64,000 nucleotides of DNA from Bolinopsis microptera (Eukaryota > Ctenophora > Tentaculata > Lobata > Bolinopsidae), in NCBI RefSeq assembly GCF_026151205.1, contig NC_087072.1, positions 18,956,103-19,020,102 on the forward strand, written 5' to 3'. The notes beneath the pieces were generated by a model. The model was not told where the DNA came from. It saw only the letters and a program-made list of their open reading frames with translations, and made no database searches. Shown here piece by piece: positions 9,149 to 49,318 of this stretch (positions are counted from its first letter, which is position 1; every line of letters begins with the position of its first letter). The position numbers and the translations under genes are program-made.

Positions 9149-9169
9149 TTAATATCTTTATTATCCAAG
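9149..9169 (+). promoter_or_regulatory. 3' splice acceptor 5 nt before MZT1 start
   Basis: A T-rich tract ends in CCAAG at 9169, then CTGTC and the ATG at 9175. Fits a trans-splice acceptor or the end of a 5'-UTR intron. Confidence 0.5.
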
Positions 9170-9174
9170 CTGTC

Positions 9175-9589
9175 ATGAACACGTCAGAGAAAAGTCAAAA
9201 GCAGAGAGACATCTTGCTTCTTGTTAGTAAGATATCCAACTTATTGGATACTGGTTTGGACAACAGATCTCTTTACATATGTATCCGACTGATTGAAGCT
9301 GGTAAGTGGAACGTACACATATAAATAAATGAATGAATTCTAACATTTATTACAAGCTTCTTAACGCTTCGTAAAATGTTCGAAAATAAATGAATAGTGA
9401 TAAACTTTCACCCCTGCAATCAACTTGTTCAGATTACTAGGATGGAACAATATTCTAACTTTATTCCCCACTGCTGCAGGTGTACACCCGGAGTGTTTGG
9501 CAGATATCATAAAGGATCTGAGGAATGAGAGTTCTAGCATGGGCTCCAAGACTGCAGCCAGCCGCCCCTTGTCTGTCAGATCTAAGTGA
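9175..9589 (+). CDS. MZT1: Mitotic-spindle organizing protein 1 (MOZART1), 2 exons
   Basis: Exon 1 is 9175-9301 and exon 2 is 9480-9589, with a 178-nt intron (GTAAGT..CTGCAG, phase 1). The product is 78 residues, close to the usual ~82 of MOZART1. The recognisable core is RDILLLVSKISNLLDTGLD, then SLYICIRLIEAGVHPECLA, matching the family pattern of paired short helices with LNTGLD and the ICVRLCEQG-like segment. In other eukaryotes MOZART1 binds the N-terminal region of GCP proteins and is part of the gamma-tubulin ring complex, which nucleates microtubules at centrosomes and spindles. The start is the first in-frame ATG, 5 nt after a splice acceptor. The C-terminal serine-rich tail ends in RPLSVRSK. 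Its next neighbour, EIF3K, is on the same strand 1.28 kb downstream. Confidence 0.93.
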
Positions 9590-10850
9590 TGGGTTATATG
9601 GTTACAATGTTCCTTACTTCAACAACCATGTGCTCGCCTGGTCATTGGTTTGGGACTGGTTCGGTATATAATACAGATTAATATTCGATCATGAAAGAGC
9701 TGAGAAATCTGCAATAAGATCATATTGTTCATCTAACATCAGCTGTCAGCAATTAAATTCCAGAACGTTTCAACTTTATTTGGTCATTGACATTAGAAGC
9801 TTTGATGAATTTCGAGAGGAATTGAATTATTTGACTTAATTAATATCTCTACTATAATTCAGAGAATTCCCTTTGTATCTTTGTACGACCGCAAATAGAA
9901 GAGAAATAGGTAGTTACATAATAACCATGGTAACGAGGGTTATTACACGCACGTGCACGTGCAATGATTGTTTTAACGTCATTTTGATCGGTTTTGTTGA
10001 TATTACGCTGTGTTTAGTACGAGCAACATTTTAATTGGCTGTATCTTTGGTGGGGATGAATACTTTTTGACACGATTAAAACTGACTTCCAAAGAATACT
10101 ATTACTATTAGGTTCCTCCCTTACCTGTGACCACGGGTTTTCTAGTTATTTATAAAATCACTTTTTTAACAATTTTGTATCTTAAGTTTGAACTTCTCAT
10201 TTTGCAGTTAGAAGAAATAGGAAACTGAGAATTTGTTTGCATCACCAATACGATACATTATTTCAAGGGTGTAGTTACACACTTGCCAAATTGAGTTTTG
10301 AGTCACGTTTAATATAACTTGAGACCTATATTTTAGTATATCGGTAAGCAGGTGACCAGCTGCACTCAGTGGACCTGCACTCACTCACTCCTGCTGCAGG
10401 TCCGATATACCATAATATAATAAAGATAGATTAATTTATGTTCATTGCTCGGCCGACGAGATGAAATTGTATTGTGTACAGTTTATTTACGTGTAATAAA
10501 TACTGAACTGTAATAATGACTATGATCCTGCAGTAGTATCTGTAATGGACCTCTGCTCCAGTATTAGCTGACATTTTAAAGATTGTCCTGCAGTCTTCAT
10601 TCATTACAACAATTTGAACAATAGTTTGGAATTACCAGATTATATAGTTCCCTCCTCACAAAATTCCACCAAAATTAAATGCTGCAGTCTGTTCACTGTG
10701 TCTCCAAATTAAAGGCGGGACACTTTTACGTCTCAGTATTATGCTTCAAATTGAAAATTGAGAATTGTAAATAGAAAATTGAGAATATAACCTTTTGTTG
10801 TAACACATATTTTACGTAATTAATTGTGTGTAAGTTTTAACATTTTGATT
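9590..10850. other. Intergenic, MZT1 to EIF3K
   Basis: No coding frame. It contains ACGTGCACGTGCA near 9950, a CTGCAG-rich stretch at 10370-10400, and T-rich sequence before the EIF3K acceptor. A promoter or 5' exon could lie here, but nothing decisive is visible. Confidence 0.4.
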
Positions 10851-10857
10851 ATACCAG
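10836..10857 (+). promoter_or_regulatory. 3' splice acceptor 11 nt before EIF3K start
   Basis: TTTTAACATTTTGATTATACCAG ends at 10857. The ATG follows after 11 nt. Either a trans-splice site or the end of an intron in the 5' UTR. Confidence 0.55.
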
Positions 10858-10868
10858 GTTACCCTGTT

Positions 10869-11543
10869 ATGGTCATGGATCCACAAACTCAATTCGAGCA
10901 AATGAAGGAGGAGGCCTTCTACTCCATGGAGGGGCTGGGACGACTGAACCCCGAAAAACTTGACTTCTATGTTGACTATCTGAAGTTTCAAGTTGAGCAT
11001 GGTTATTATGATGGCGATGCTAATTTGAACATTCTCAAGTTGTATCAGTTCTCACCAGATCTGATAACTAGATCCAGCATTGATAACGTCCACTATGTGC
11101 TAGTGAAGGCTCTGATGCAACTCCCAAGGAGCGACTACGTGTTCTGTCGCGCTCAACTCTCCCAGGAAATGATAGACGATAACCTGACGAAGAAGATAGA
11201 TGATGTGGCCACACTCTTGGAGACCTGCCAGTTCCCAGAGTTCTGGAATGTGATACAAGAAGAGAAGATATTTACAGAGATGACAGGGTTCACGGAGTGT
11301 GCCAGGAAGTTCATATGTCACGTGGTTCAGCTCACATATAAAAACATTGAGGAGGATTTCCTAATGCAGTTGCTGGGGCCTAGCGTCGACAAGGATTTAT
11401 TTTTGGAAATTGTAGCAGAGGAGAAATGGGACCATAATGGGGACAGTGTGTTTGTAGGCCACAAAGAGGAGATGGTCGAACAGAAAGAGATCATAGAGAA
11501 GATGCCCATTGAGGTTGTGACACCCATCCTGGCTATCAGATAG
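10869..11543 (+). CDS. EIF3K: Translation initiation factor eIF3 subunit K
   Basis: One uninterrupted coding exon gives 224 residues (human eIF3k has 218). Diagnostic segments are NLNILKLYQFSP at residues ~53-64, LLETCQFPEFW at ~116-126, and GFTECARKFICHVV at ~140-153, matching the conserved HAM/PCI-type region of eIF3k. The N-terminus carries the expected LGRLNPEKL turn. eIF3k is a non-catalytic subunit of the eIF3 complex that helps scaffold the 40S initiation complex. The ATG at 10869 was chosen because it follows a splice acceptor and restores the normal length. A second ATG lies two codons later. The lack of coding introns is unusual next to the intron-rich neighbours but does not look retroposed, since no frame damage or A tail is seen. 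Confidence 0.95.
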   Translation: MVMDPQTQFEQMKEEAFYSMEGLGRLNPEKLDFYVDYLKFQVEHGYYDGDANLNILKLYQFSPDLITRSSIDNVHYVLVKALMQLPRSDYVFCRAQLSQEMIDDNLTKKIDDVATLLETCQFPEFWNVIQEEKIFTEMTGFTECARKFICHVVQLTYKNIEEDFLMQLLGPSVDKDLFLEIVAEEKWDHNGDSVFVGHKEEMVEQKEIIEKMPIEVVTPILAIR

Positions 11544-12070
11544 ATTTTGTTTTTGGGTTGCTAAATTATTTGTTATTGAAATCTGACAATTTTATCCTAT
11601 TTCATGCCTCCATGAAATTCGTGTTTCATTGCTTATTGAATTGTATTATGATCATTGTCCGTATTACTGCAATATTATTTGGTTAAATTCCCATCTAATG
11701 ACTTTAAATATGATAATTTTCTTTATGTAACAGTTTGTTTAATTAGTAACCAGGACATTGCCTATATGATTATTCGAAACACCCAACAATTTAAGCTGTA
11801 TAATGTTCATGTGCACGATTTACATGTTCTTCGCAGCTTGTCTGTAGTTGTTCATAGTTTCGTTATACAACTTTCTCAGCTCTTTTGTTATTATCTAATG
11901 AGAGCTACAAGACAGTTCCATTGTCTACAGTACAAAGCTGCCACACTATTTCATCTAACGTTCTTAGTAAACTAGGAACTAATGGCTGTATCGGTAATTC
12001 ACATGAAGAACTGAATAACAGATCATGCATTATTTATAACTATTGTTTCGCAGTAATTTGTGTTTATACA
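11544..12070. other. Downstream of EIF3K, no gene
   Basis: AT-rich 3'-flanking sequence. Openings at 11655-11975 lack codon character. No clear AATAAA was found close to the stop. Confidence 0.4.
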
Positions 12071-12440: not shown

Positions 12441-12738
12441 CAAAATATAACGATGACAAATAGGATTGATTCTGTGAACTGTTTGGCTAGGAGACCACAA
12501 CAAGGAAATGAACGCTTATGATATACATATAAATAAGGCTCAAAACATTTGTAAAATCGTTTCAAACAAATCCACTCGCCACTAAACAATGATCGCGTGA
12601 TAACATCCTATATAAGGCACAGATTGGTATGAAAGAGTTGCCAATTAATTGCAATTTGTGTGTTGTCTAATCTGGTTCAAGGTAGGAGGTAATAGTCTTT
12701 ATGGAATGTGTGTCAGTGTTGTTAACTGCCACAATATA

Positions 12739-14236: not shown

Positions 14237-14239
14237 GTG

Positions 14240-16360: not shown

Positions 16361-16364
16361 CCCG

Positions 16365-22619: not shown

Positions 22620-25600
22620 TGGGTTCTGGTGATCTGGACCATGCCCATCTCTCTGGTGTCTGTGCCCTAATCTCCCGCGCTCTCACGTCCTCAACGCTTG
22701 TATTATTATTGAGGTACATTTCACAGATTCACAAATTTGACAACGGTTTTAACCTAAGCCGAGATCGTTCCGATTACCGTGGTCACATGTCATTAAACGG
22801 TACAAGAATGTGAAGTAGTTTCGGTTTCATGTTATTAATAATGATATAAAAAACGGTGAGTTAAAAAGTGTTAAATGCCCCTGATTCCAACAGTGCACCG
22901 CCACTCCTGGCGGCCCCTACCTAGAACCGCACTGCGGGTGCCCCTGAACAAAACAGGGAACGGTAATCTAACCACCACGTGTTAAGGACCCACGCTGATT
23001 TACCAGAAGTAGGATCATGTTCCCAATCTGAGTAAGCTGCTCAGCTTTATATAAACTTCTACCTAGCATTAACTAATAAGCTACTCGTATATCATAACAA
23101 ATTTATTTTGAACATTTTGTCGATGTTCAGCCGCCCCTCATCGATTGATCATTGGCGGGCGCAGGGGGAGGCGACGCAGGCAAACCTTTTACGTCCATCG
23201 GAAGGTGTTTTAAAGTTAGTATAAAGAACATAGTGGGTGTAGTTTGTTGGTAAAAATTTTTGAATTATAGATCATACGTAAGATTAACGTTTAAATCGAC
23301 TATTTAAGTACGTAATTTACTATTTAGGGTATGTAAAAACCGTCACAAAACAGTTAAAGCGAATATTACGGTTGCATTAAAATTGTAATTTAATAAAATA
23401 AGTAAAGATCTGATATAAATGGATTTGAGAAGTCCTCCTATAGCCGTTAGATGTGCAACTCTTTTACATATTGAAAAGCATTAATACTAGCGGCTGCGAT
23501 CAATGGGGGACTTGTCCACCCCACGGCCTGGCAACATTAAAAATATATCGACCTGTTTACCATCGCTATCGCTTCCTCAAATTATTTGTTCTAGCTAGTA
23601 TGTTGTATGAAACGGTCATGGGAATTATTCTGAACTTCAGGACTGCCATTACACTGAATATTCTCTTAATGGGGTACAATACAAAGGGAACAATCAATTC
23701 CTCCGTGTCTTAAATCGTAAATAATAAATCATTGCATAGTATACATAATGTGGGCGGGTGCCATTACCGATGAATTTTAGCCTGGGTGGTTGGACCTTTG
23801 CCAGATTATATATCAAGAGACATAGTTCCTTGGTGTGGTGCCGTGAAAATAAATTATCGCAGTCATAATGAGACAAATTTCGAACTTTTCAAGGGCAGAC
23901 AAGGGAACTTCGAGCAAGGTCAAAGCCTGGAGAATGTTCTCTCTACCTGAGATGGGCCTGGGTTGAGTTCCTAGTGTAGATTTTAATTGAAAGTGTTCCT
24001 GGTAAAGAATCCTAGGATTTACCAAAAAAGGTTTTCCCTTAATCCCTGTCTTGTCGACTGTTCCAAAAATTTGTAAGATATGGTTGAGTTTACTGTTTTA
24101 AGATCCTCGTAGGGGTTTTACCAAATATCCGCATTCTGAGCGCCATGAGCTGGAGCACTTGCAAGGAGTGCTGGGATGTGTCTGCTTCTCCTGAAAGTGT
24201 TCACTAATCTTGCGTCTCGAAGTTGAACGTTTGTTCGCCACGTTCTGAAAGTAACTAGTGGCTGTGACATAAAGCATCTATATGACAGCGGCCATGTTTA
24301 ACCATCGGATTGTGAGTTTCCTGAAAAATTAAAGTTCCGGATTTATATTTGTTTAGGACACTCAAAGGGTTTTTCTTTGTCACTGAGTGTGGCCGAATTG
24401 GGAGGAAGGATACTGGTCCGATGGGTTTTGTTGGATTCGACCCATGCAAGTTTCTCCGCAGTTTGTTACCGTATACTCCGTCAATGGCCTGGAACAGTTA
24501 AGTTCTACACCGATGTGAATACCTAGAGAGTTTTTGAGGTTGGTCTGGAGATGTTCAGAGCGAACCTGAAAGTTAAAACTGGTGCTGTCAAGCGCTTAAA
24601 AATGCAGCCTGGGAATCCTAGAGGAATTAATCATTGTTTGGAATCCTAAGTTATCATTAGTCCAGACCACTTGGGGCGGTTCGGGAGAGGATTTTGTGGC
24701 TTAAAATAATCTTACTCAGAGCTTCAGAGTTAATATTACCAAATCTGTAATTATTACAATCGTTTTACCCGCAGAAACAAAATAACGTGTCGACAAAAGA
24801 GATAGTCGAGGAAAAAGCGGAAACTAAGTCCCCATTTCTCTCTACAAAACCTTTCTATTTTAGTCAGGTCTAATGATGGTTTACTGATCTTCCCCGTTAT
24901 AATCTATAAAATTTTTCAATCCTTATATTTCTGTAGATAGATTAGAGGCCCTGTTATTTGGTGAAAAAAAAAAGGCGGGTCCTCTTGTTACCTCCTCAAT
25001 ATAAGTAAATACACTCCCTCTCCCCTCTCAAATTCGGACTGTAGCCGGGAACCACTCTTTTATACGGAGACTAATGGTGTGTTAATCCAGGTTAGAACTG
25101 CGTTACAGCTCAGTTAATTTAGCTGAGCTGTTGGAGAGCAGGTTGCCATTGTCCCTGGAGGAACTGGTAATTGAAGGGGACTCCCTTGACGATCACAGCC
25201 TCCAGTACATTGTAAACTCTCAAGTCTCCACTGACATCTCACCTTAGTAAGTAGTGTTTTACCTACAAGTGTTGTATCAACAACTTACAATCCGTCCGAG
25301 ATCTTGATATATAACTTAAAAAACTTAAAAAAATCCTATATAGTCGATGGTGCTGTAGATGTGTCGAGGTAACGTCATCAAATGATTTTTATGTTAGATA
25401 CAAAGAATAACTAAGATGAAACAGGAATTCTTATTACAGTCACTAAGTTGGCATACGATATAATAATATGACGTACATGAAACGCAGCGTTAACACGAAC
25501 AAACCGCGCAAAATATGAAATATCTACAACCAAACCACATACAGATGGACCACACTCAGATGTGTGCTGAATTTTTGTTTCCCGATCCTATGAGCTCAAA

Positions 25601-29196: not shown

Positions 29197-29230
29197 CCAG
29201 TTTTCCTGCACCAAAACGTTGATAAAATAA
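29197..29230 (-). promoter_or_regulatory. 3' splice acceptor 12 nt before the synaptotagmin-like start
   Basis: The coding strand reads TTTTTTATTTTATCAACG, then TTTTGGTGCAG ending at 29206, then 12 nt to the ATG. Confidence 0.5.
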
Positions 29231-29234
29231 AAAA

Positions 29235-31057: not shown

Positions 31058-34000
31058 AATTGGGTAACTGGCAAAAGTCCCGCACACATTGGGACGTCCG
31101 CGGAGTTTCTCGATGTAATCCGACTTATATGACCCTAAATAACACTAATTACTCGGGTACACTTTTTCACCAGTGGGCATTTCCTCGGAATCAAGCCCTT
31201 GTTGACCGCACCCATTATTGCGACCCCGCCCCACGATAATTTTATTCTCGGCTTCTGATTGAGATACAGAACTCATTATGAACCAATGTGCCTAAGAATG
31301 CATGTTTATGTTAGTGCTATGAAGATACTTAGGCCTAAAGACTTAGTTTTTTGAGAATTCGCCCAAAAACCAACCCGATTTTACTATATAGCAGCTCGTG
31401 AGTAAAATTATTACATTTAGTTCAATGATATCTCAGCTTCTGTTGGTGCTCGAAGCGCTCATCTTGGGCATGAAAATGTCAGAATCAGCATATTGAGTGG
31501 GATAGAGCAATGGTTTGTAAAGTCTTCAGACGGTCAGGTTGGTGAGTTCTTAGGTCAATCTCAGATTTTACGCTCTCGCGAGTAGCGATTGAATGCACTA
31601 TTTCAAGATCTCTCAGCTTCTGATTGGAGCTAAGCGCCTAAGCTGTGGGCATTAAAACGGTCAGAATCTCACATTGAGTGGGGGTAGAGCGGGTTTTAAG
31701 CCTTCAACTTCAGGTGTGAGTTATTAGGGCAGATCGCATTTTTTAACGCTCTCGCGAGTATCGATTGATGCTCGTACTTCAAGATATATCAGCTTCTGAT
31801 TGAGCTAAAGCGCTCATCTTGGGCATTAAAAACGTCAGCAATCATCTCATTGAGTGGGTAGATAGGTTTTAAAAGTCTTCAGACTTCAGGGTGTTTGAGT
31901 ATAGGTCAGATTCTCATTTTAACGCTCCTCGCGAGTAGCGATTGATGGCACTTAGTTCAAGAGATATCCAGCTTCTGATTGGAGCTATTAAGCGCTCATC
32001 TGGGAGTGCGGGCATTAAAAACGGTCAGAATCATCTCATTGATGGGGTAGAGCATGGTTTTTAAAGTCTTCAGACTTCGGGTGATGAGTTATTAGGTCAG
32101 ACTCATTTTTTAAGTTTAACGCTCTCGCGATTGTCGATTTGCACTTATTTCAAAGATACTCAGCTTCTGATTGGAGCGAAGCGCTCCTCTTGGGGCATTA
32201 AAACGGTCAGAATCATCGTCATTGAGTGGGGGTAGCGCATGGTTTAAAGTCTTCGAACTTCAGTTGTAGAGTTATTAGGGCGATCTCATTTTTTAACGCT
32301 CTCGCGAGTACGAATTGATGGCACCTGTATTCAAGATATATCTGCTTCTGATTGGAGCTAAGCGCTCATCTGGCATTAAAACGGGCCCAGAATCATCCTC
32401 AAGAGTGGGGTAGAGCATGTATAAAGTCTTCAACTTCAGTCTTGGTTGGAGTTAGTAGGCCAGATCCCATTTTTACGCTCCCGAGTAGCGAGTAGCGCTC
32501 TCGCGAAACGGCTTAGTGGCTCAGTTTGGTAAATCGGCCCCTGGCATGTTTCTCGAGTAACCCAGGTCGATTCCCGACTCGTGTCACATAGCCGGTGGGG
32601 AGATCGTCGTCGACCGCTCAGCTAGGACCATGAGTGGTCTATCCAACCCCCAGTCCACTCAGCCGAATACTCCCGAGTAAGCCGGGTGTGAGGGTGTAAA
32701 TGGAGGGCTTCCCCATTGCAGCAAAGTCTCGAGGGCGACGAAAGTATGGTACACACTCCTTACCCGTCACTGGCCTAAAGTATAATTGAATCCTTCGGCT
32801 TCCGTAAGGACTGGTTACAACACGTGGGGGAACAATGTGGTTGTTGGAAAGTCCGAAGTAAAAAAAAGGTTGAATTTTATCACTTCTTGTTTTAGCACTT
32901 ATTCATGATATCTCAGGCTTCGGAGTGGAGATTATTTATAAGCGTTCTCATGGGCATTAAAAATAGTAGAATGATAAGATTAAGTTAGCATAGAGCACGG
33001 TTTTAAAATCTTCAGACTTTAGGGTTAGAAAAGGATAGGTCAAACCCCTATTTTAATGCTCCGCAAGATGGTCACTACGGGGCAATGGTGAAATAGTTAT
33101 ACGATGAACTTTATCAATCGCCAGGAAAAAGTTGTTTGCCAAGAATATCAGGGAAATTTTCCTAAAACCGCTAGCCCCGAGGAAACATGCCTTTAACCCT
33201 ACTGAATTTGAATCATTCTGACCATCTTAAAGCCCATGATAAGCGCGTACTTAGCTTCTATCAGAACTGAGATATCTTTTAATAAGTGGATCAATCGCTA
33301 CTTCGCGAGAGCTGGAAAAATGGGATCTGACCATAATAAACTCCAACAACCTGACGTCTGAAGGACTTTAATACCATGAGGCTACCCCCCACTCAATGTG
33401 ATGAAACGGACCGTTTTTGATTTTAAGGCCCATGATGAGCGCTAAGCGCCAAATCAGAGACAGAACTGAGATATCTTGAAAAAGTGCGTTCAAACGCTAC
33501 TCGCGAGAGCGTTAAAAGGAATCTGGAACCTAATAACTCAACATCCGGAAGGCTGAAGACTTTTAAAACATGCGTCTAACCCCACCAATGAATGAAGCTG
33601 ACCGTTTAATGCCCAAGATGAGCGCTTTAGACTCCAATCAGAAGCTGATATAGCTTGAAATCAGTACATCAATGCGACTCCGCAAGAAGCATATAAATGA
33701 GATCTGATCTAATCACTCAACAACAACCTAAGTCGGACGACTTTAAACCATGCTCTACCCCACTCAATGTGATGATTCTGACCGGTTTAATGCCCAAGAT
33801 GAGCGCTTAGCGCCATCAGAAGCAGATATACTTGAAATAAGTGCATCAGTCGCTACTCGCGAGAGCGGAAAAATGAGATCTGCCCTAGATACTCAACAAC
33901 AAACTGAAGTCCGAAACTTTAAAACCATGCGTCTTCCCCACTCAATATGATGATTCTGACCATTTTCATGCCCAAGATGGCGCTTATCTTCCAATCCAGA

Positions 34001-34378
34001 AGCTGAGATATCTTGAAATAAGTTGTAATAATTGTTACTCGCGAGACTGCTAATTATAGTTAAATCGGGTGTTGGCGATTTCCTCCAACCTAAGTCTCTT
34101 AGGCCTTAAGTACTTCATAGCACTACTATAAACATGCATCTTAGGCTCATTGTGGTGCATACTTGAGGTCTGTATCGCAACAAAAGCCGAGATAATTTAT
34201 AGTGGGGGTCGCAATATGGTGCGGGTCAAAAAGGTGCGTGATTGCCGAGAAATGCCCCACTGGTGAAAAAGTGTACCCGAGTAATTAGTGTTATTTAGGG
34301 GACTGCTAAGTGCGGATTACAGCGAGAAACGCCGCGGACGGGCCCCAATGTTGCGGGACTTTTGCCAGTACCCGATTA
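31058..34378. mobile_element. Giant foldback element, arms of tandem ~185-bp repeats
   Basis: The left end (TAATTGGGTAACTGGCAAAA) and the right end read in reverse (TAATCGGGTACTGGCAAAAG) match, and similarity continues inward for over a kilobase. The outer ~330 bp of each arm is unique (shared AATAACACTAATTACTCGGG). Inside, the left arm (~31400-32500) and right arm (~33060-34060, opposite orientation) consist of ~185-bp units marked by CAGCTTCTGATTGGAGC, GTCAGAATCATCTCATTGAG and ACGCTCTCGCGAGTAGCG. The centre holds a SINE (32512-32790) and one isolated unit (~32880-33060). The design resembles Drosophila Foldback/Galileo elements. No transposase frame is visible. Units differ by many indels. 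Confidence 0.8.
32512..32790 (+). mobile_element. tRNA-derived SINE, copy 1
   Basis: The head GGCTTAGTGGCTCAG fits an A box and GGTCGATTCCC a B box. The body (AGTGGTCTATCCAACCCCC, CGGGTGTGAGGGTGTAAATG, AAAGTATGGTACACACT) is shared with the minus-strand copy at 50048-50304. Inserted near the centre of the foldback element. Confidence 0.75.
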
Positions 34379-35490: not shown

Positions 35491-35491
35491 T

Positions 35492-38400
35492 TTAACTAAC
35501 CGGTGATGTAATTTCCTCCGAGCACAACTGTTGCGTCCGGGAGTAGAAGTAAATGGTCTCCTCTACGACATCCAGACTGCTATTACTGTCGGACAATATC
35601 TCTGATACTTTTTTACCAATACCTTCCCCCGGGGCTTCAGTTGAGTAATAACCGCATCTGACTTCAACTGAAATGAGGTAAATTGTCATCAACTTTCTCG
35701 CCATTTCGCCATGTTAAAAATTCCGTAATTTTGCGATAAATGAACAGTGACCCACCTTAAATGTTAAGTCCTCACATGTCTAAATCTACAATAACCCAAT
35801 AATATTATTAAGATAATTTGTTGCCAAAACCCAAAATTTGGTAGAGTCTCGGGTCGCCAGTGTCTCCTTTTCCGAACAAAAATAAAAACGATACCAATTT
35901 AATTACCATACCCTCAAAGGAGGTATAAAGACTGACGGTTGTGCTTGCCAGCACTGTGATAGCGTTACAAAGATCACTTTTATGAACCTCCAGTTAAGTT
36001 TACCTGCACGTCCTGCTCCAGAATATCGTTGTAGAAGGTCAGGATGGCTCTCTGGAGTGGACCCAGCGTGGATACCGCCAGCTTGGTGGACAGTGTATTG
36101 TAACCGTGTAAACTTTTAAAAGCGTCCAGTGCAGCTGGCATGTTCCTAACCATGGAGCTGATTGCGAAGATGGTGGATTTAGCGAGCTTCTCAGATTGAG
36201 AGAGGAGCCTGGATATTAGGGTCCCCAGGTAACCTGGGTTGGAGCTGAATTTAATTATATTCTCAGAGACATGCACATTTTTACAGTAAATAGTTTATCA
36301 AGCACGTGCAAGATCTACTTCAAGCAGAACAAACGTTGAGAAAACTATTAAAGTATTAAAAAAGATAATAATCCCCAATTACCAGCTTGAATGCAGTGAA
36401 CTTGAACGGGCGGGTTACTCTGAGTAGCGGATGAGATGACTCTGAGAACAGCTTTATAAACTTCCTCACTAGGGTGGAACAGCAGTTCCCCTACTCGCTT
36501 CATCCATCCTTGTGTCACTAACAGCTGGCCGTTATCATACTGATGGTACAAGTAGACATTTACTGTTTTATTAGTTGTCTAAAATTTAAATAAATAATGA
36601 TGGCCATTTATGGATAAACGTCAGCGATAAAAATTATAGTCACGACAAGAAAAGTCTGTTCCAACCTTGTGAGCCAAATCTTCTAGTTCCTCCAACACAA
36701 TAATAAGAGAGGGAATGTCCGTGTCACTTGTTGAACTCAACACTGACATCTTATCTTTTAATACCTCTCCTTCCGTCTGCATCTTCAAGTTAGGCATCTC
36801 TCTGGAAAAATGTATTTTAAGAGAGATGTATCTAAGTTTATTTGAAATAGTGACGTTTTGGATTGAGTTAAATGAATTGGTGGACTATTTCTAAATTCAT
36901 GGATATGAAACATCGGGATATCCCGAGAAATCCTGTTTGCTACAGACCAAACAACACAGTATCATTTCTGTTATTTTCGTATGCCGAAAACATATTTGAA
37001 CTCAATAAATTTGGTTTTAGTACTATTAGCTTTGTTGTCCCATTTATTTGAGAAACTCAACCAATACTTCATGGACCAGGAGTGTTAACTTCTTGAATCT
37101 TGACCTTACATTGTTTATTAGCACTTGAAATCCGCGAAAAACAGTAAAATACTAAATTATGTAGATATCGTTCTTTTGGAACTTCATATTTTAACCTCTG
37201 TTTGGATGCACTATTATTAGAGCAGCATATTAGTTTAAAACTAACCTCCAGTGTTTAGCAAGTTAGGCAACCTTCTTACTTGGTTTAACTTAGTTCTATA
37301 AGTGATCTTGCCTACTTCAATGAACCCTTGTAATGTTATAATCAGTAATCTAGTAAAAGGCTCATGATGTCCCCGAAACGTGCGGATTATTTTCCGGTTA
37401 GAGGCCCTTTCACAGTCATTTGCTGCCTTGTTTCACTTTGGGTCTGTCGAGAGCCGTGATGCCCTACTGAACACGTAACAACAAGGCACAAAAATACGAA
37501 AGCAAGATAACAATTAACAATGATCTATTTTAATTTATTAAAGTATGCCAATTACCTTCCCAAATACCTTCCTGGTTGTAGCTAATTATTGCAGCAAACA
37601 TTTTCATTGGCTCCTAAAGTGAGTCCGCTTCCCAATTGGTTATTGGGACTGGCACGAACAACCAGCGTAGAACCAGACCAATTGTTACTAAACATATTAC
37701 ATATTATAATTTGTCTCACGTTGTGCATTTCCTAATAGTGGTAAATTGGCTACAATCACTCACAGCGTGGGACAAATTATATTGGCTATTAAAATCCTCA
37801 CAAAATTAAATGTTGTAAAACGAATATGTCAAACAATGTCAACTATCAATTGCAAATGATTAAGCGTTCAAAATTCTACCAGATTGTAGGAAGTCATGAA
37901 TATTGTTAAGGAAATTATTCGAGCTCATCCATTCGTTTGGGTTACCTTCAGCCCGGTACCTAATTAACAGCGAGTTTATTGCTGGCCCCTGAATCTTGAT
38001 TTGTGAAAGGGATGGCAGGCGATACTTCTTGGACTAATTCGCGCGTACAGTAAGAGACCATTGCGCACTTTGAATGTTTGTAGAACAGCGAGATCCTGAA
38101 GTATTTGCCCTATTGATCATGCCCATAAAAAGCTAACTGAACCCGATATTTTACAGTGAAATTTTCAATCTGCAAAGGGAAGATTGCCACGTTTTTAGCC
38201 ATCTGTACCCTAAAATTGTCAGGGTTCTTAAACCGCAACGAAGTGCAGCAAATCGACCAACTTGACTCAAACTCTCGCATAACCTTCTCAAAATCACACA
38301 AGTCAACTTACCTTAACTCGATTATTACGACGGTTTTATTAACGACCGGTTAAAATATGGTTCGGGAAAAATATGGCAAATTGCTCAAAACCCTCCACAT

Positions 38401-40947
38401 TTTCCGGACGCCATTTACCGGTCCAACCGTTCAATTTTAGATTCAAAAATTTTGTCTCAGATGTAAATTTCCTGTTGAGAGATAAGCAAGTTACGAAATT
38501 TTCGCATTGCTAAAAACTTGTGAAACAAGTCGAATTATCAATTAATTGTTGAAAGTAGAACATAATAATGACTCGTGGTTAATCAAACTAGATGGAAAAT
38601 AATGTTTAACATTTGAAGCGTAACAACCTCATCGATATTAAGAATAAGGGAGAGCGGGTTAGTCTTCAAATTAGTGTAATCATCTTCCGTTATCCTTCAT
38701 CTGATCATCCCTTTCATCAGTTTTAATTAATTCTATTTTAATTTAAAACTGTTACTTTACTTTGAGTCCTATTGTCATTATGTAGAGATAGTCAGATCCT
38801 AAGAAATTAAAAATTGGCCTATTTAAATCAAAGATTTGACAATAAGGATTATGACAAAAATTGGGCCAAAGAAGTGGAATTTTTGCAATTGTAGCCAAGA
38901 AGTCGAAAACCTAACAACAAGTGTCCCAATAGGCTTCTTTAGTGAAATATAAGACAATGAATTAAAATATGAGCACCCCAAAATACCCCGTGGAACCCTA
39001 AAAGCTGAGTATAGGCGGGTTTAATTAACGACCGTGAAAAATGTGGTTCGGGAAAAATATGGCGAAATTACCCTAAACCCACCACTTTATCCCGGTCATA
39101 ATAATCCCGAGTAAGGTTATCAGAATATCGTGGAAACACCAGGATGCTGATGATCCTAAGAAAGGCGGTGATGGCGACAAAAACTTTAAAATTGTGCCAT
39201 TCACTATTGGAGCTTTGGAGGAATCTCACGATACATGCTAACCATGATTTGCTACGACACCATAATTGGGCTTTCTGGACGATTCTCATGACGTCAGCAC
39301 TGAGGGTCGAGGGGGGTTGAAATGCTGACGGGGGGAGGGGGGACTGGAGTCTTGCTGACGTCAGCAGAAATACCTGAATTTTTGTGCAAACATTTGTGTT
39401 TCAAATCAAAGTTATTAACAATAACTTCACTAATTTCCTTAATATTAGTACTTCGGTGAACTGAACTCTGTTGACCACCTATTCAAACAATCAAGTTTCC
39501 CTGTCTACACCCTTGCCCCCTTACCCAACAACACCCCCTCTCCCCGTCTGCATTTCAAAACATCCTCCTTGACCGGGAGGATAAGTAGCAAGTATAGGGG
39601 TTTGAGGGGGGGAAAACGGGGGAGGGGTCGCTCAAAGCGACAGGGGGAGGGGAGGGGTAAAATTTGCCAAAATCTTGCTGACGTCATATGTGAACGATCC
39701 CATAGTGCGGATCTATGTTATATAATTAAGTTACTGTCAACCCAATCACCTGATCATATGTAATCAATCAACTTCTTTATGCTTGATATGTATCTCGGTC
39801 ATCTGAGTAACTAGAGCTCCCATTTTTTTCAGGGTAAGTGTATTTTTAAGAAGCCAAACACAATGCATTACAATTTGACTCGATCAAATCGTCCAAAATA
39901 TCTCTAAACCGCGAAAAATTGACGATTATTCGGGAAAAAATGTGAATGAGTGATAATAGCAGGTCATTCCAGAAGGAATTATTTCAATTGGGCACTCAGT
40001 GACTGAGAAATAGGCCCCAACGTATATTTCCGTATATTGCCAAATAAAGGGGGATTCTGCTCCAGAGTAGAAACGAAGGGGACGGAAATTTTAACTGCAG
40101 GTGCATCGGAATCAACAAGAAGAACAAACTGTTAAGGAGATTGCCTTATATACATTATACTTACCAAGTACCAACATTTTTCGAACCATTTAATATGTTC
40201 TGACGCTGGTTTTAAGAATACTTACTTCTTGAGCTCCTCAATTGTTCTGAATCTTCCAGATAAGGTTTCGGACGAATCATCCGAGTTTGCAGCCCGTTTC
40301 AAACCTTCTTCTAATTTTTCGACATCTAAACTATCGTCAACTATCCCAAGATCTACTATGCTGGCATCTTTAATTGCCAGTCTGTTTTCTCCGACCCCTG
40401 TAGAGAAACTTTTCAAATTCTAATAAACACGAAATACAAACATACAGTTAAACAACATTGGTCAATGGTGCGAAGGAGTTAAGATAAAGAGAACTGGGTC
40501 AAATGTACAAATATACATTATACATACAAGTGTTGGAATTTGGAAAAGAGCATATCTTTTCGAAATTTCCACATAAATTCTAACCTGATGATTCAGAATC
40601 CTCCTTCGATAACTTTTTGGCTTCTTTTCTACCAGTTTCCAAGTTCATTCTCACGTGTAGCCCTTTGCCAATTGACTGACCTACGTATTTTGATTTTAGA
40701 CGGTAAGCAACGCAGCATGAAATTTCAATTACAATGATAGAGTGAACTGGCTCTTAGAGAAAGAAAAACAATTAAAATTGAGCCCAATTATAGGTCGGTT
40801 CTAAACTGCGAACTAACCTTCTTTGATATCTGCCCATTCACTCGTTGCAACAAATTTCTCGATAACATCGTCTGATTCATCAAGAAGAGGTGTCACTGAT
40901 ACCCATGTCCAGAGGAATAAAATCGTAGTCAACAGTTTTAAATTCAT
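35492..40947 (-). CDS. SIL1: SIL1, nucleotide exchange factor for ER Hsp70 (BiP)
   Basis: The exons are 40947-40818, 40397-40226, 36801-36666, 36539-36383 (or starting 36578), 36233-36004 and 35667-35492. Intron 2 is 3.4 kb. The first exon begins MNLKLLTTILFLWTWV, a clear ER signal peptide. The exon 2/3 junction gives FRTIEELKKEMPNL, matching the conserved RPIEELKK site of SIL1. Armadillo-like repeats follow (YDNGQLLVTQGWM, SSATQSNPPVQVHCIQAG, STIFAISSMVRNMPAAL). In animals SIL1 releases ADP from BiP in the ER lumen. The product is about 330 residues, shorter than human (461), and no C-terminal KELR-like retention signal is seen. The last exon reads in frame only if one base changes in the C5G4 run at 35626-35634, so an indel or an alternative splice is likely. 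The ATG lies 2 nt after an AG. CEP162 ends 640 nt upstream on the same strand. Confidence 0.87.
37705..37781. repeat. 77-nt hairpin inside SIL1 intron 2
   Basis: Arms 37705-37725 and 37761-37781 pair along all 21 positions if transcribed from +, with two G.U pairs, and enclose a 35-nt loop. Pre-miRNA-like in size, but could be a MITE relic. Confidence 0.45.
38325..39090. repeat. Dispersed ~65-bp direct repeat pair in SIL1 intron 2
   Basis: TTAACGACCG..AAAAT.TGGTTCGGG followed by AAAAATATGGC occurs at about 38338-38385 and again at about 39023-39065. Short family, origin unknown. Confidence 0.55.
39300..39665 (+). repeat. G-rich tracts able to form G-quadruplexes
   Basis: 39308-39345 and 39597-39660 carry several G4-G8 runs on + (for example GGGGGGAAAACGGGGGAGGGG). 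Each is followed within ~60 bp by CTTGCTGACGTCA, suggesting two related insertions. A C-rich stretch (39510-39545) could pair with the second. Confidence 0.6.
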
Positions 40948-40948
40948 A

Positions 40949-40972
40949 GCTTTAAAAAGTAGACGGTTAATT
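40949..40972 (-). promoter_or_regulatory. 3' splice acceptor 2 nt before SIL1 start
   Basis: The coding strand reads CCGTCTACTTTTTAAAG ending at 40950, then CT and the ATG. Confidence 0.5.
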
Positions 40973-41586
40973 TGGGGCTTTTATTCGAAAGATTTTCCCA
41001 CCACGTATTCCACGTATAAATAGTCCCCTAAAGATCACAGAACGCGCGGTGTTGCGCACAGGTCCTTAGACACGTAGAGAAATATACGTTCGGCCGCTGC
41101 GCGTTCCCGTCCGTTCCCATTAAATAAACCGCCATTTGACTAAAACTGAACATTGGACATAAGCCGGTGTCAGTTCAAAACGTCACAATTACGATTTCAT
41201 TTCAAAGCATCAAGACATCAATTTTAACATAATCTAGCAGAAATTGAAAAATTCGAGCTTCTTAAAGATCAGTTATTGGCGGCAGTTTCGACAATCGTAA
41301 AGGCCGGCTACAAATAGATTTAGAACGGAGTAAAAATGAAGGATATTAAAACTATTAGATGAGAAATTATGATAATATACATACATAAATACAAAATATT
41401 ATACTGGTAAAAACAAAACAACAAGGTTAAAAGACGGTCGTGAGAAGTGACCAACTAACGCAACATTTTGTGCGGAATTTACTTATTAGATTATCAAACA
41501 GAATTGCCCCTCAAATAGGCAAAGCTCATTGAATAATGACAACATGTTCACCAGGACCCACGTCACTGGTGGGGGTGCCCTGATGA

Positions 41587-44500
41587 TCACAGGTGGAATT
41601 GTCCAAGATTGTGCCGTTTAGGTAAAACTATACCATGTGATTGCAGCTCCATACAAAGGCTTATTATAGAGTCTATCTCGTTCTGAAATCGTTCAATTTG
41701 AAGGTTCTTTTCTATCAGCTGCTCTTATATTTCTTGATGATGTGTTCGCTGCTATAACAACCTTAACCTGAACAATAGGAATTTTTTGCTCTTAACTAAT
41801 AATCAAATATTCACTTTTTGAAATCCATCCCTAACACCCAGAAGTCAGGTTTAACATTAAGTTTAACCCTCTATGAGGAATATAATGACAGCGATGAGTT
41901 CCTGAGATAATTGTGTTACCTTCGCTTTTTGGAGTATATCGATAGTATCCTGAAGTTGACCGGTCTGATTCTTATGAGCACGTTCCATGTTTTCAACTCT
42001 CTGCTGTATTGTTTTATACTGGTGTAACGAAGGGGGCTGCTGAGCTGCCGTCTGAAACATATTATAGTCACAGCCATATTATCTTCTACAACGTGTAATC
42101 AGTTGGGAGAACAACAATTCCCCACATCTTATACTAACTGATAAAACACATCTTTGGCGATTAATGCTCAGTAAGTATAATATTTTCAAAGAATTGGCCT
42201 CAAAAAAACTACAAGAAATGGTACAAACCTCCTCAAGTTCTCTGCCTAGTTTCGTTATCTGTTCCACAAGTGTTTTCTCCTTATTCCTCAAGTTCTGAGT
42301 CTCAGTTTGCAGTTTGGGCAGATGGCCTGCTTGTTCACTGTAATGTGACACTTGAAGCTCCAGAGTCTCCACTTTATTTGTTAACCGTGCAACCTCAGAT
42401 TCTGCAAAGCGTGCCGCGTGCTGTGTAACAAGCTTCTGTCGCTCTCCTTCGTGGTGTTGGATGAGCTTGTCCATTTTAGTTGACTGCTCCTCAGAGAGCC
42501 GCATTACTTCTGTCTCATGGGTGACTTTCATTCCCAGTAATGTGGACTTCTGCTGGTCGTTTTCTATCTTCAGAAGATCGCATTTAGTTTTCAGAATTGA
42601 GTTTTCTTTTCGCACCTCTGAAATATGTTTTCCCTCAAAGTGTTCAGGATCATATTGTTTTTTAATTGTCAGAGGTGCAGCAAGCAGCAGTTGAGATTTT
42701 AACTGTACCATCTGCTGATCCTGAACTCTCAGCTTCTCATTCAACAGCCCCATCTTCCGTTTAATCTCCCCAGTTGGTATTTGACCATCTCTGAGATCAC
42801 GACTCTCTTGTTCTAATTTAACAGCACGAGACTGCGCTTCGGCCAGGGATTCCTCAAGTCTGATAACTTTCTCTCTTAAAACTCTGTTCATTTGCTGCAC
42901 CTTGCTTAGTTCAACTTCAGAACTTTTTTCAGTTTTCAGTTTTGCGATATAGCCCTCATATTCTCTTGACCAGAATAAAGTCTCCTGCATTTCTAGGATC
43001 TTAGCTGAGTTATCAACAGGTGTAGTGGCTGCAATGAGTGCTGTAATTGAATCAGGATGACGCTTGTGTAGGGCTGACTCTAATTCAGCAATCTGTCGTT
43101 TTAAATCGCTAATGGTCCTGACATTTTCAGCTGAGGCCGTTGCAACCAACTTCTGTTCATGTTCAGTACTCTGCAAAAGTTTCACTGCATGCTGAAGTTC
43201 AGCAATGCGATCCTCACGCCGTCGCAGCAGATCTTTGTCAGTCCTGAGGTCGGCGTTTTCGCGGAGCAAGTTCTCCAATTTCTCGTAAAGCTGGTCCCTT
43301 TCTTGGGTTTGCTCTTTTACCAGAGTGGTTATCTGCAGTTGAATTCATTGATAAACAAAGGTATAGTAGGATATTTGGTAATTCATAATTTAAATGGTAG
43401 AGTAAACTATACATTATATTATATTTCAAATTAACAGACCTGTTGGTCCACCTGTACAAGAGAAGAGTTAACAGCAGCATCACTAAACTCCCTGGGTCCC
43501 CCTCCGACACGGCCCTCTAAAACAGTTACACGCTGTTGGTACATTATCTCCCTGTGTTTGTAGTCGTCTAGATCAGCTTGTAAAGCTGCTAGTTTGGGCA
43601 GGTTTGACACTTTGTCTGCTAGAAGTTGGGTTTGTTGGTTCTGCTGCAACTGTCGTACTGACGCCTGAGGTGTGCAGTGTGTAAGTATGAGAAACTATTT
43701 AATGTTCCAATATATTGTACTACGTGTTATAAATGAGATCTCAACCATACAAAGTCAATTCTACAGTTCAACATCTTCAAATCAATGTCATTACAAGTAA
43801 AATGTTAAATTATGATATTTAATGATCTATTTAAAGTGAATAATATTTATTATAAATCAAGAGGCTTGCATATAATGAACATATTGACACGGGTGCAGAG
43901 TTGAGTCTGTACGGAACCTAGCAGTTTCAGATCCTTGTTTAACTTGCCGTACAGCAAGGTCATCCACTACTTTAGCCCGGCGAGGCACATAACTCCCAGT
44001 TATATCAGTTATACCAGTTATATCAGTTGGTAAAAAAGAATATTACGTATGTTTTACCTCTTTCTGTTCGAGTAATTGCTTCAGAGCAACGTTGTTGGAC
44101 GCCAGATCTTTATTTTCTAGAAAGAGTCGCGTTATTTCGTCCTTCTGATGCTCTTTTAGACCTCTCATCTCCTCATAGACCTTAACATTCTCCGACTGGT
44201 ACCCTGTAGTGGCATCACGTGAGATTGATGCACAATCACGTCATTCAAATACTAAACAATAATAAAACCAAACCAAAGTACGTTTAAAAACTAGATAACT
44301 GACCACTAAGAAGGTTCTCCAGTTCAGCAACTTGTTTGTTAAGATGCTCCACTCTGGAGTCCGCATCTCCTCCACCTCCTCCAGCACCCGCATTCCCGGC
44401 ATTTTTCACCCGCGACTGCAGCACATACACGTCCTGCTTGTACTTGTGGAGCTCCTGCGAGTGTGCTGTCTTGAGGGTGCTGACACGCTCCTTGTGCGCA

Positions 44501-47500
44501 CGCTGTGTCTCCTGCAGCTGCTCCTGAACCTGGCGCAACTCCTCCTGGGTGCGCCTATACAACTCCTTCCACGCTTCCACATCTCTGAGGTGGGAACATC
44601 AGATACACAACAGTTTGGAAAATTCCAGTTCCATAAATTACTCTGATAATACGATAATTAAAGTTAGGGATTTAGACGTTTAGAAAAAAATACTGATTTT
44701 AGACTAGTAATATATAGTAAATTTGGTTATAATACAAGATACAACTAAGATACAACTAAGATACAACTAAGATACAACTTAGATACAACTAAGATACAAC
44801 TAAGATACAACTAAGATACAACTAAGATACAACTAAGATAAAACTAAGATACAACTAAGATACAACTAAGATACAACTAAGATACAACTAAGATAAAACT
44901 AAGATACAACTAAGATACAACTAAGATACAACTAAGATACAACTAAGATACAACTTAGATACAACTAAGATACAACTAATAGCAATTATTAGAATTACCC
45001 GTCTGCTTGAATGACCTCCACAAGACTCTTGTCAGTTAACGCACATGTCCATGTGTTACCAAGGTTCTGTTTGGACAAGTTAACATTATTTTTCCCATCT
45101 GAAAAAAAAACAGTTAAATTAAAGAAACTGGATAACAATGAATGGTGTCTCCCATTAATCTGATTATTCAATGCGTTATTTTCTACTAAACACTGAACTT
45201 TTCTAAGTTTTCATCAATTTAGTTTAGAGTCGTTTACAATAAAAGATGTTTTAATTTTTTCTTTGCCTGATGAGTTACACTTTTGTTCACTTTTACACAT
45301 TTGCTCACATCACTCACAGTCAGCCGCTCTTGCATGGTTAACCACCTTCCTTGTGTTGCTGGCTAATCATAAATACCTAATTTCATTTCATTTTTTCATA
45401 CTTACCATTTTGATGAGAAGGTTTAGGTTTACCCCTAATGTAAGCTGCAACGGGGGACTGTGCCACTATTTTAGATTTAGCCGAGGAAGTCCTAACAGGA
45501 ACTTTACTTTTTGAGGGTCCTGGCGAAAAGCTATGTTTAAAAATAGAAATTGTCTGTCAAAAATAAAGAGTTTTAAAAACGTTATAAAATTTAAAATAAT
45601 TAAAAGCGAAAATTTAAAATGCGAAAACCTGAATCCTTCGTTGTGATAGTTGGTTTCTTGATGCTGCTCGTAAACTTTTTAGTGTCCTGTCCTTTCTTCT
45701 TAGGGGCAGGAGTTTTTGGTTTGACAAACTCAGAATCAGGAGTTTTATCTGACCTGGAATCTGATGCTCTACTGCTCTCTATACTGGACCTACAAAAACT
45801 GGTGATACTTCCTTGCTAAGACAAAAGTAAACTACACCGTGCCATTTAATAGGGTTACTAATATTGTACCAATATACTCAACTCGACATGGAGGTTCATA
45901 TCCAGAAGGCAAATGGCGCCTTTCATCAGCTCTGGATCATTTGGAATAGCAGAACTATAAAGACTCCAACCAAGATCAGGATCTATAAGGCTGCTGCCCT
46001 CACCATCTTGTTGTATGGAGCTGAAGTCTGGAACACCACCAACGCGATGTGTGTGATGCAGGCCACTCCAACGACTAGGAAGAGACCTTACCATGTATCA
46101 TGTATGTAACATACTCAACTTCAAATGAACATGTCCATAAATAAACTACTGTAATCTTCGAGTGCTCAGAATATTTGGCTAAAGCAGATTTAGGACGTAC
46201 TACCATAACTTAGTCCTACTAAACAAATTAATAGCGGAGAAGTATTTTTAAAGCACCATGAAGCAATTCTTATCCTTCATTGCTTTTTGGCAGTCCCACT
46301 AGAGGCTTTATCTGCATCTGATTGTCAACCACAAGTCCATTCTCAAGATGTGATTGAGGTGCCTGATTTCAAAGTCAGACTATGCAAAATAACTTTGTTG
46401 AAGGTGTCAGTTAATTATCACGGATTGGGGACGATATTTCATATTACTCCTCCCTGCGTTAATATAGCTATTTAACATAAATGTAGTTGGACAGAGTACT
46501 GGCAATTGTGAGAGTATAACGAGAGGATGGGAGCTGCTTCTTCTAGCGTTGGGCGCCGGAGCTGCGGGTGTGGGAAAACTTTCGGTGATCTCCTTCATGA
46601 ACAGAATGAGATACAGACTAGTGTTCACAGTGATAGCAGAGACTTTAGTCCTTAGTTACGCAGCCATACTTTACTGGCCAGTAAATTCGATAATCATAGT
46701 TACAATGAGCGTTGTTGTTAAGTTTACGTATGGTATAATTATGCAAATGGCCACAACGTATGTAATGTATGACCTGAGATACTTCGGCTCAAGAATGTTA
46801 GCCCTTTGGACTGGAATTGCATCTGGAATCTCAATAATCGTTGGCGCATCAGGCACTGCAATAGGGTCTTTTGCACCACCATGGATAGCAGTGCTTAGTG
46901 CTTTGGTGGTGAGTGTTTTGGAGATATTTGTTGTCATGTCCATGTATGAGATGGATGATTTGCAAAACAACTGCTACTTAAGTACTGGGCTTGATCAGAC
47001 AACTCGGACACTGGCGAACATTATCATAGTGGACTTGAACAGATATAATAGCAATATTAGCGAAATTTAATACTGATAATTAATATATATTTATAACTAG
47101 GTTATTAGTGAAATATATTTTTCTAACCTTATCTCTTGACTCTTTTGGGCAGCTTTCGCTTTTATTTTTGCCAGATAATAAGCCATATCTTTCTCCTGGG
47201 AATAATCAGGATTTGTAGTTGAAATAGTTTCATGTGACTGGGAAGGTTTCCCTTTTGTCTCCCCTTGTGTGTCCACTTCATTGTTATCCTTGAGGTGAGG
47301 ATCTCTTTTGCTTAGTACTGGACTTAAGTCAAAACCAGTAGTGCGGTCCTGGAACCTGTCCTGAAATTACCATGATTTGTTATTAATAATAATATAGCAT
47401 TTATTTGTCATAATTACGGCATAAGGCTTTGACTCAAATTGAACTGATTAATAAAATAAAGCATGAAAGATTAATTTTAACCATATCAATGGGCGTCGAT

Positions 47501-49289
47501 TCGAACGGGTTTAAAGTTGTTTTCATAGGAGAATAAGCAGTTTTCGAAGGGGATTCTGCAGGTGCAAGTCGCATTTCATCCGGACGATTAAACTTGTCGT
47601 TGTCTGAAACATCCTCATAACTTTCAAACTGGTCACTCGAGTAGTCACGTTCTGAAAAAATGTTACTAGCTCAATTGTATCCAGAAAATAGTGTTGTAAA
47701 TGTTGCAAAGTTATGTTACACCATAGTGCCGTGTCTGAAGCACTCTAAACAACCAGACTACAGCTGAATGGAGTGAGAAAAATGTATGTAAAACATTTGT
47801 AAAATCTATTTTGTCTGAACCAAAACACGGCGGTTAAACCATTATGACATTGGTGCCGACAAACCTGGAGCCAACTCTAAAAACTCACCGGAGGATTTAA
47901 CATCCTGAAGAATCTTATCGACTTCTTCTTCCACCTCGGACACCTTAACTTCACTAGGAGTCTCCTCGCTAGGGGTCTCCTCTTCTCTTATCACTGGAGA
48001 CTCGTTCTTCTCAAAATCTTCCTCCAGGGGCAGGTCTGCTATTGATGCTCCGGTGGCCATCAAGGTGTTGTCTTTAGGAAGACTACTCTCCATGAATGAC
48101 ACTGAGAAATATGTATTGATAGTTTGAGTTTAAGTTTGGGCAAATACCCTTCAAGGCAACTTTACAATTTGGCTAAAATCTGGCCAAGGCTCAAAAAATA
48201 GTTAATTTTACGTCAAAAACAACAAGCTACTTTTAACTCTGCTTCCCAACCATTAGTTAAAGAATTAAAAAAGGAGGTTTTTAGGTACCGGGCCATCCTG
48301 GTAACCTTGCTATGGGCTGTTCCCTGGCTTATGCAGGTCTAGTTTACCCATATTATATATAAAAAAGGAGCACATAAACGACATTTTTCTTGCTTGATAA
48401 AATATTTGTCCATTTTTATATTTCTCTTGTCAAATTCTAAAGCTTAATGTAGTAATATCACTGAGCACTCACCTTTATCCAGAAGGTTGGACTCTTTCAT
48501 GACAGAACTCGGGATAGCAAGAGATTCACTGAAATATTCATTGCAATTCATGAAATGAATTAACTATTTGCAGTATTGTAATATTTGACAAGAACAGTTT
48601 CTAGAAAGTAAAAATAATCACTGTTGTAGGTACTAGCAATTAAATGCATGAATTAAATAGCTTGACAATTTTTATAGCGTAATATTCTAAAACAATTACC
48701 ACAGAAATATTCAAACTCACTTTGGTGGTAGTTCAGCAGAGAGGCCTCTTTGAAAATTGACAATTTGATCCTCAACTTGCTTTTCAATGATATTCTTATC
48801 TCCAGAAACGTTGATGTCTGTACTTATATGCAATGATTTCATTCCTGCCATTAATTTTAAGGCCTCTGTATTCAGAGAGTCAGATTCTTGATGAACAGTC
48901 AGTTCATCTGAACTCTCTGAATCAGGATTGGAAGAGACCGGGTAATCTTCTGGATTCGGTAGAGGTGTGTCAACATGTGGTAAAGGAGTGTCTGAGTGTA
49001 TCTGCTCCTCGTGGGACATGGACTCTTCAGTTTCTGACATTACTTCTGCAATCGGATTGCGAGGTTGAAACTTTCCATCAAAAGACTTGTTCAAAAATGG
49101 CATAGGGGAGGCAGGACTTAGCATGCTTGTACTGCTACCAAGATCGGTTGTGATCTCGATATCAGTTGTTTTATTTCCGGCATCTTCGTCAACAGATTCA
49201 CTAGCCTCAAGGAATTGATCAACATCATCGAATGAACTGAGAAAGCTTTTCCGGTTATCTTTACTGCCATGGTTAACATCATCAGCCAT
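41587..49289 (-). CDS. CEP162: Centrosomal protein CEP162, 14 exons
   Basis: The exons are 49289-48721, 48528-48473, 48101-47889, 47651-47482, 47360-47128, 45789-45629, 45519-45406, 45098-44999, 44584-44304, 44203-44058, 43664-43440, 43332-42229, 42051-41920 and 41718-41587. All junctions have GT..AG and agree in phase, giving 1211 residues (human 1403). The N-terminal ~540 residues are acidic, serine-rich and disordered (FLSSFDDVDQFLEAS, YSSDQFESYEDVSD). From ~540 onward the protein is coiled coil. Family landmarks are GYQSENVKVYEEM, RHPDSITALIAA at ~847, and the C-terminal FQNEIDSIISLCMEL, then HGIVLP. CEP162 binds microtubules at centriole distal ends and helps build the ciliary transition zone, so this animal should make cilia. 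The ATG follows an AG acceptor by 7 nt. Intron 5 holds opposite-strand relics, and intron 8 a minisatellite. Confidence 0.9.
44735..44980. repeat. 12-bp minisatellite in CEP162 intron 8
   Basis: About 20 copies of GATACAACTAAG with rare variants (AACTTAG, AAAACTAAG). More homogeneous than the other arrays in the window. Confidence 0.95.
45862..46100 (+). mobile_element. RTE-like RT fragment in CEP162 intron 5
   Basis: The frame reads MEVHIQKANGAFHQLWIIW, then KTPTKIRIYKAAALTILLYG, then AEVWNTT, typical of the region distal to the RT fingers/palm in RTE-type LINEs. Truncated at both ends and opposite to CEP162. Confidence 0.75.
46287..47070 (+). pseudogene. MFS transporter copy (SLC22-like), intronless and frameshifted
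   Basis: Two frames on + join at about 46470. The first (46287-46475) has VPDFKVRLCKITLLK and NYHGLGTIFH, resembling the CPxLR..TL..YYG loop and helix of SLC22 transporters. The second, open to 47070, contains about five hydrophobic helices (WELLLLALGAGAAGV, VFTVIAETLVLSYAAIL, MLALWTGIASGISIIV, APPWIAVLSALVV) and the MATTYVMYDLRYFGSRM segment at the place of the GELYPTxxR motif. It lacks the N-terminal half and sits in CEP162 intron 5, antisense. A decayed retrocopy is most likely. A nested last exon using the CAG at 46492-46494 is the alternative. Confidence 0.45.
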
Positions 49290-49296
49290 CCTATTT

Positions 49297-49318
49297 CTGA
49301 AAATTATGAAATTTAGTG
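49297..49318 (-). promoter_or_regulatory. 3' splice acceptor 7 nt before CEP162 start
   Basis: The coding strand reads AATTTCATAATTTTCAG ending at 49297, then AAATAGG and the ATG at 49289. Confidence 0.55.

Follow-up and report, generated by a model that had tools for sequence, protein, structure and literature searches.

Acceptor-like sites just before five gene starts in an animal-like 64-kb window fit spliced-leader trans-splicing

Introduction

Why should all five recognizable genes in a stretch of animal-like DNA begin within a dozen nucleotides of an AG? A sequence-only reading of this DNA had described a T-rich tract and a splice acceptor immediately before each of the five ATGs and attributed the pattern to spliced-leader (SL) trans-splicing. 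Among metazoans, SL trans-splicing is known from nematodes, flatworms, tunicates, hydrozoans, ctenophores, rotifers, chaetognaths, and copepods. The whole 64-kb stretch analyzed, here called the window, has a G+C content of ~39% and carries reverse-transcriptase open reading frames and satellites in addition to the five genes (Table 1).

Results

The identities of MZT1 and EIF3K are firm, as judged from Pfam and from the sequences of solved structures; EIF3K encodes a divergent protein that scores 132 bits against the best solved chain. The other three names are looser. In the synaptotagmin-like gene, in which no intron was recognized, two C2 matches, at E = 0.16 and E = 0.0015, fall short of the Pfam cut-off, and comparison of one piece with PDB sequences returned no synaptotagmin, only three weak ETV6 matches. 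The SIL1-like protein, which yielded nothing above cut-off in a Pfam search, resembles armadillo-repeat proteins (the best match, at E = 7.1e-10, is a designed protein); we tentatively take it to be SIL1 from this match and a signal-peptide-like N-terminus read by eye. The CEP162-like protein is presumably CEP162, a name suggested by its C-terminus; its first 810 residues gave no Pfam match above cut-off.

The ATGs of MZT1, EIF3K, and SIL1 look right: against solved chains, the top alignments of MZT1 and EIF3K start at query residues 9 and 8, respectively, and SIL1 has its signal-peptide-like start. Less confidence attaches to the ATGs of the synaptotagmin-like gene and CEP162. Apparent frame changes in the synaptotagmin-like gene (two, at about 28850 and 28345) and in the last exons of SIL1 and CEP162 suggest small uncorrected assembly indels. 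The CEP162 stop at 41587 requires such a change, and the GT-AG model stops at 41693; the start positions are untouched by these frame changes. GT-AG models of MZT1, SIL1, and CEP162 were built from the DNA, with boundaries set by eye and phase kept, and comprise 20 coding introns, of which CEP162 has 13, SIL1 has six, and MZT1 has one.

Table 1. Positions of genes, candidate acceptor sites, and other features, numbered from the first nucleotide of the window
Feature	Position	Strand	Description
MZT1	9175-9589	+	ATG at 9175; two coding exons (9175-9301, 9480-9589); Pfam MOZART1, E = 1.8e-18
EIF3K	10869-11543	+	ATG at 10869; single coding exon; Pfam CSN8_PSD8_EIF3K, E = 1.6e-19; solved eIF3k chain, E = 2.5e-37
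Synaptotagmin-like gene	27974-29193	-	ATG at 29193; N-terminal hydrophobic stretch (by eye); weak C2 similarity
SIL1-like gene	35501-40947	-	ATG at 40947; seven coding exons; frame and end of last exon uncertain
CEP162-like gene	41587-49289	-	ATG at 49289; 14 coding exons, 13 GT-AG introns
MZT1 site	9120-9169	+	T-rich tract, AG at 9168-9169; AAG type; preceding 58 nt without another AG
EIF3K site	10830-10857	+	Tract, CAG at 10856-10857
Synaptotagmin-like site	29206-29240	-	Tract, CAG at 29206-29207
SIL1 site	40950-40979	-	Tract, AG at 40950-40951; AAG type, weak
CEP162 site	49297-49356	-	Tract, CAG at 49297-49298; strongest of the five
Reverse-transcriptase-like regions	2856-4175, 4734-6835	+	First by eye only
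Leucine-rich-repeat (LRR)-like exons	25092-25244, 27210-27336	+	Exon-like stretches, in phase as LRRs (by eye)
Inverted repeat	31067-34370		Each arm with tandem units of about 176-178 bp; many small indels
SINE-like element	32714-32757, 50066-50107		Shared 18-mers; tRNA-derived (by eye)
Tandem array	44736-44979		In CEP162 intron 8; 11-bp unit, 22 copies, 96% match
Retroelement-like fragment	45831-46106		In CEP162 intron 5; DUF6451, E = 4.8e-7
Open frame	46468-47070	+	200 codons, membrane-protein-like (by eye); within CEP162 intron 5, on the opposite strand
Facing arrays	50806-51028		AACTGCTGCT and its complement; could form a long hairpin
G+C-rich segment	51029-51110, 54362-54440		Two copies; TTAACGGGTGATACTCGT and AGGACCGTCGACGAGTCC common to both
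Satellite array	58358-63998		58-bp unit, up to the window end; ~13% indels between copies

Our sample of starts is these five. The LRR-like exons and the membrane-protein-like open frame were left out, their starts not being pinned, and another ATG, near 13.9 kb, which by eye may have an acceptor before it, went unused, as no gene is recognizable there. Of the LRR-like stretches, the one at 27210 has weak LRR matches below cut-off and the one at 25092 has none; their start and upstream exons were not found. The membrane-protein-like frame has no Pfam or PDB match, and among ten further open reading frames the single Pfam match above cut-off was the DUF6451 hit on the retroelement-like fragment. 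The region 5372-6832 matches RVT_1 at 6e-29. Pattern and protein scans of viral and prokaryote contig collections yielded no confirmed relative of the window's repeats or genes: a peptide pattern was met in 3 and 4 stretches in two of the viral scans, none of them confirmed, and the pattern of the SINE-like element did not occur in the viral or prokaryote collections scanned.

The distances from AG to ATG given in the sequence-only reading are exact: 5 nt for MZT1, 11 for EIF3K, 12 for the synaptotagmin-like gene, 2 for SIL1, and 7 for CEP162. The sites differ in type, with CAG in EIF3K, the synaptotagmin-like gene, and CEP162 and AAG in MZT1 and SIL1. At position -3 the 20 internal acceptors have C in 17 cases, T in 3, and A in none, and the occurrence of A at two of five starts versus none of the 20 coding-intron acceptors gives a Fisher p of 0.033. 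No stop codon interrupts the frame between acceptor and ATG in any of the five genes; going upstream, the first in-frame stop is met 36-69 nt before the ATG. Ahead of EIF3K, a GTAAGT seen by eye starts 28 nt short of the acceptor's end, a distance too small for a normal intron.

For a comparison with chance, an acceptor model was trained on the window's own 20 coding introns, and the best AG 0-12 nt before each ATG was scored, the background being 1393 ATGs outside masked genes and repeats (1390 after a slightly wider mask). Some AG lies 0-12 nt upstream of 727 of the 1390 background ATGs (52%). The five starts scored 6.7 (CEP162), 1.6 (synaptotagmin-like), 1.0 (EIF3K), -1.1 (MZT1), and -3.0 (SIL1), and the leave-one-out mean of the 20 introns was 2.3. 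The fractions of background ATGs (n = 1393) reaching the gene's score were, in the same order, 0.0007, 0.054, 0.068, 0.15, and 0.24. Taken jointly, the summed score of the five has a permutation p of 1.25e-4 (rank-sum p = 5.6e-4), and models bootstrapped over 60 resamples with 1390 ATGs give a median p of 3e-4 (5-95% range, 5e-5 to 3e-3, the lower value being the smallest p that the test can return). None of 388 windows placed at joint upstream offsets of the same genes reaches the summed score. A crude rule (YAG with at least half pyrimidines) holds for 18 of the 20 introns, 266 of the 1390 background ATGs, and three of the five starts (P = 0.05). All these p-values are optimistic, because the 2-12 nt range was chosen from the data.

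There is thus an excess of acceptor-like sites at the level of the group, to which three genes contribute, CEP162 most of all. The individual sites are strong in CEP162, moderate in EIF3K and the synaptotagmin-like gene, uninformative in MZT1, and below par in SIL1, with likelihood ratios for an acceptor versus none of 29, 4.9, 6.1, 1.5, and 0.36, respectively. The claim of a convincing T-rich tract and acceptor at every start was overstated: the group p runs from 1.25e-4 to 0.05 depending on the test, only the CEP162 site is strong by itself, and MZT1 and SIL1 lie at background. Likelihood also favors start-proximal acceptors at 50% of genes over 5% (median 23:1; bootstrap 5-95% range, 3-77) and at 40% over 10% (median 8:1; 5-95% range, 2-18). 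The 5% and 50% fractions are assumptions, a literature search having given no figure for acceptors within 12 nt.

Searches of the 64-kb window for a leader or an SL RNA gene gave no positive result. Rfam returned no match at gathering scores. Ten published leaders (sequences taken from PMC8527503, PMC7986045, PMC8629364, and PMC4664967) matched the window no better than resampled sequence, the closest, one copepod variant, being equaled by 1 of 20 resamples; the leader of the ctenophore Hormiphora californensis likewise had no match in the window above shuffles. A donor-plus-Sm pattern occurs 11 times in the window, against 8.4 ± 2.7. The leader-end-plus-donor string TTTGAGGTA occurs once, at 49370 (+), and AATTTGAG occurs three times on the minus strand, never followed by GT; we took both as chance. 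The absence of a leader from 64 kb says little, since the 718 genomic leader copies reported in 110 Mb for H. californensis (PMC8527503) correspond to a density of ~0.4 copies per 64 kb. A relaxed Rfam search of 50500-55000 hit miRNA models exclusively, 15 times and always below gathering score, and these matches were set aside. Of them, 14 fall on a CTGCTAACTG-type hairpin near 50.8-51.0 kb and the other lies at 51396-51523; neither copy of the G+C-rich segment was matched.

As to operons, the same-strand gap from the CEP162 stop (41587) to the SIL1 ATG is about 640 nt (about 746 nt if the modeled stop is taken instead), and that from the MZT1 stop to the EIF3K ATG, also on one strand, is about 1.28 kb. 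Both exceed the 250-300 bp limits used for operon calling in chaetognaths (PMC12460157) and parasitic flatworms (PMC12582326), and the CEP162-SIL1 gap lies within the repeat-adjusted 1-kb limit used for M. lignano (PMC8629364). In a working Hydra operon, the distance from stop codon to acceptor is 417 nt (PMC3273482).

Discussion

With a discount made for the weak sites and for a pattern picked out post hoc, we regard SL trans-splicing as the best single explanation and put its chances slightly above even. The spliceosome would cut out the outron, the stretch upstream of the AG, and in its place attach a short leader donated by a separate SL RNA; the resulting 5' UTR would be the leader plus a few nucleotides. 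CEP162, EIF3K, and the synaptotagmin-like gene probably begin just behind a real 3' splice site, and in MZT1 and SIL1 either the AAG sites may be used or the AGs may be there by chance. From the acceptor-like sequence that we observe, we infer use of the sites, a leader, and an SL RNA, and this account fits the pattern while stopping short of proof.

What favors trans-splicing is that the five sites as a group outscore both random ATGs and shifted windows of these genes, together with the likelihood preference for the higher acceptor fraction in both comparisons. Several fast-evolving animal lineages use spliced leaders, and the divergence of EIF3K, which resembles that of such lineages, is counted on the same side. 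Some of these lineages are named in PMC12460157. The 2-12 nt distances are in range for an SL-using lineage, given that post-leader 5' UTRs average 24 ± 36 and 17 ± 26 nt in two copepods (PMC4664967). Counted against it are the likelihood ratios of MZT1 and SIL1, two sites of five that carry almost no weight; the failure to find a leader or SL RNA gene in the window, although not every 64 kb should contain one; the simple YAG rule and the post hoc character of the pattern; and the M. lignano trans-acceptor motif, [T/C]TNCAG (PMC8629364), which among the five only CEP162 matches (by eye). SL-using lineages may, moreover, trans-splice a minority of their mRNAs: less than 31% in parasitic flatworms (PMC12582326), and in the glass sponge A. 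vastus trans-splicing was reported on 4% of long reads (PMC10282587). The earlier attribution is supported in part and stands as a favored reading rather than a demonstrated one.

Ordinary cis-splicing would produce the same picture if, gene by gene, a noncoding first exon lay upstream and a 5' UTR intron ended near the ATG. Cis- and trans-splicing are served by the same kind of acceptor, and 5' UTR introns are common, being reported for about 35% of human RefSeq mRNAs (PMC2864569) and, in Arabidopsis, lying preferentially 1-40 nt before the ATG (PMC1482700), so that both site and position have precedent. Unlike the known cases, however, the arrangement would have to hold for most genes of a small sample: three to five of five genes would need a configuration that we assumed, without a measured source, to occur at about 5% in a cis-only animal, and both the 5% and the 10% fractions are disfavored by likelihood. 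We consider this account possible but distinctly the less probable. Finding cis-spliced 5' exons at these acceptors would not cleanly refute trans-splicing, as in parasitic flatworms cis-splicing is also seen at 66% of the SL acceptors on average (PMC12582326).

Alternatively, CEP162, and perhaps one more gene, may have a real acceptor, with the remaining AGs incidental in A+T-rich intergenic DNA. The abundance of background ATGs with an AG within 12 nt, the single-gene values of 0.05-0.24 for the other four genes, the AAG at two starts, and the result of the simple rule all speak for chance, but the joint permutation test, its bootstrap median, and the shifted windows speak against it, and we think it improbable. 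Together with cis-spliced 5' UTR introns it shares most of the remaining probability. It is hardly credible, finally, that the ATGs of the synaptotagmin-like gene and CEP162 are internal methionines of a second coding exon, with the acceptor ending a coding intron. The open frame from acceptor to ATG in all five genes means that an upstream coding exon could be spliced on, yet such a reading is unlikely for MZT1 and EIF3K, where the alignments start close to the N-terminus, and for SIL1, with its signal-peptide-like start.

To return to SL trans-splicing, the sites resemble metazoan SL systems in that an acceptor, preceded by a T-rich tract, stands a few nucleotides before the ATG and would leave a short 5' UTR, as in copepods. 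They differ in that the window yielded no leader or SL RNA and in that two of five are AAG. The weak sites may be excusable, since outron acceptors in S. mansoni depart further from the canonical sequence than cis acceptors do (PMC5832876). In H. californensis, leaders were found on at least 56% of Iso-Seq reads, and nested intronic genes are common (PMC8527503); we treat this system as a lead only. That the organism belongs to a lineage not yet known for spliced leaders, in which nearly every gene, from the single-exon EIF3K to the multi-exon CEP162, is trans-spliced within a dozen nucleotides of the ATG and AAG is tolerated at trans but not at cis sites, strikes us as a long shot.

Should these sites act as acceptors for trans-splicing, the organism would belong to one of the scattered SL-using animal lineages. 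The earlier suggestion that the pattern narrows the host lineage applies only once a leader has been found. The mechanism is already well described and would be ordinary for several animal lineages, so the gain would be better annotation and a fuller map of the occurrence of trans-splicing rather than a new system: the gene models could be corrected by setting their 5' ends at these AGs.
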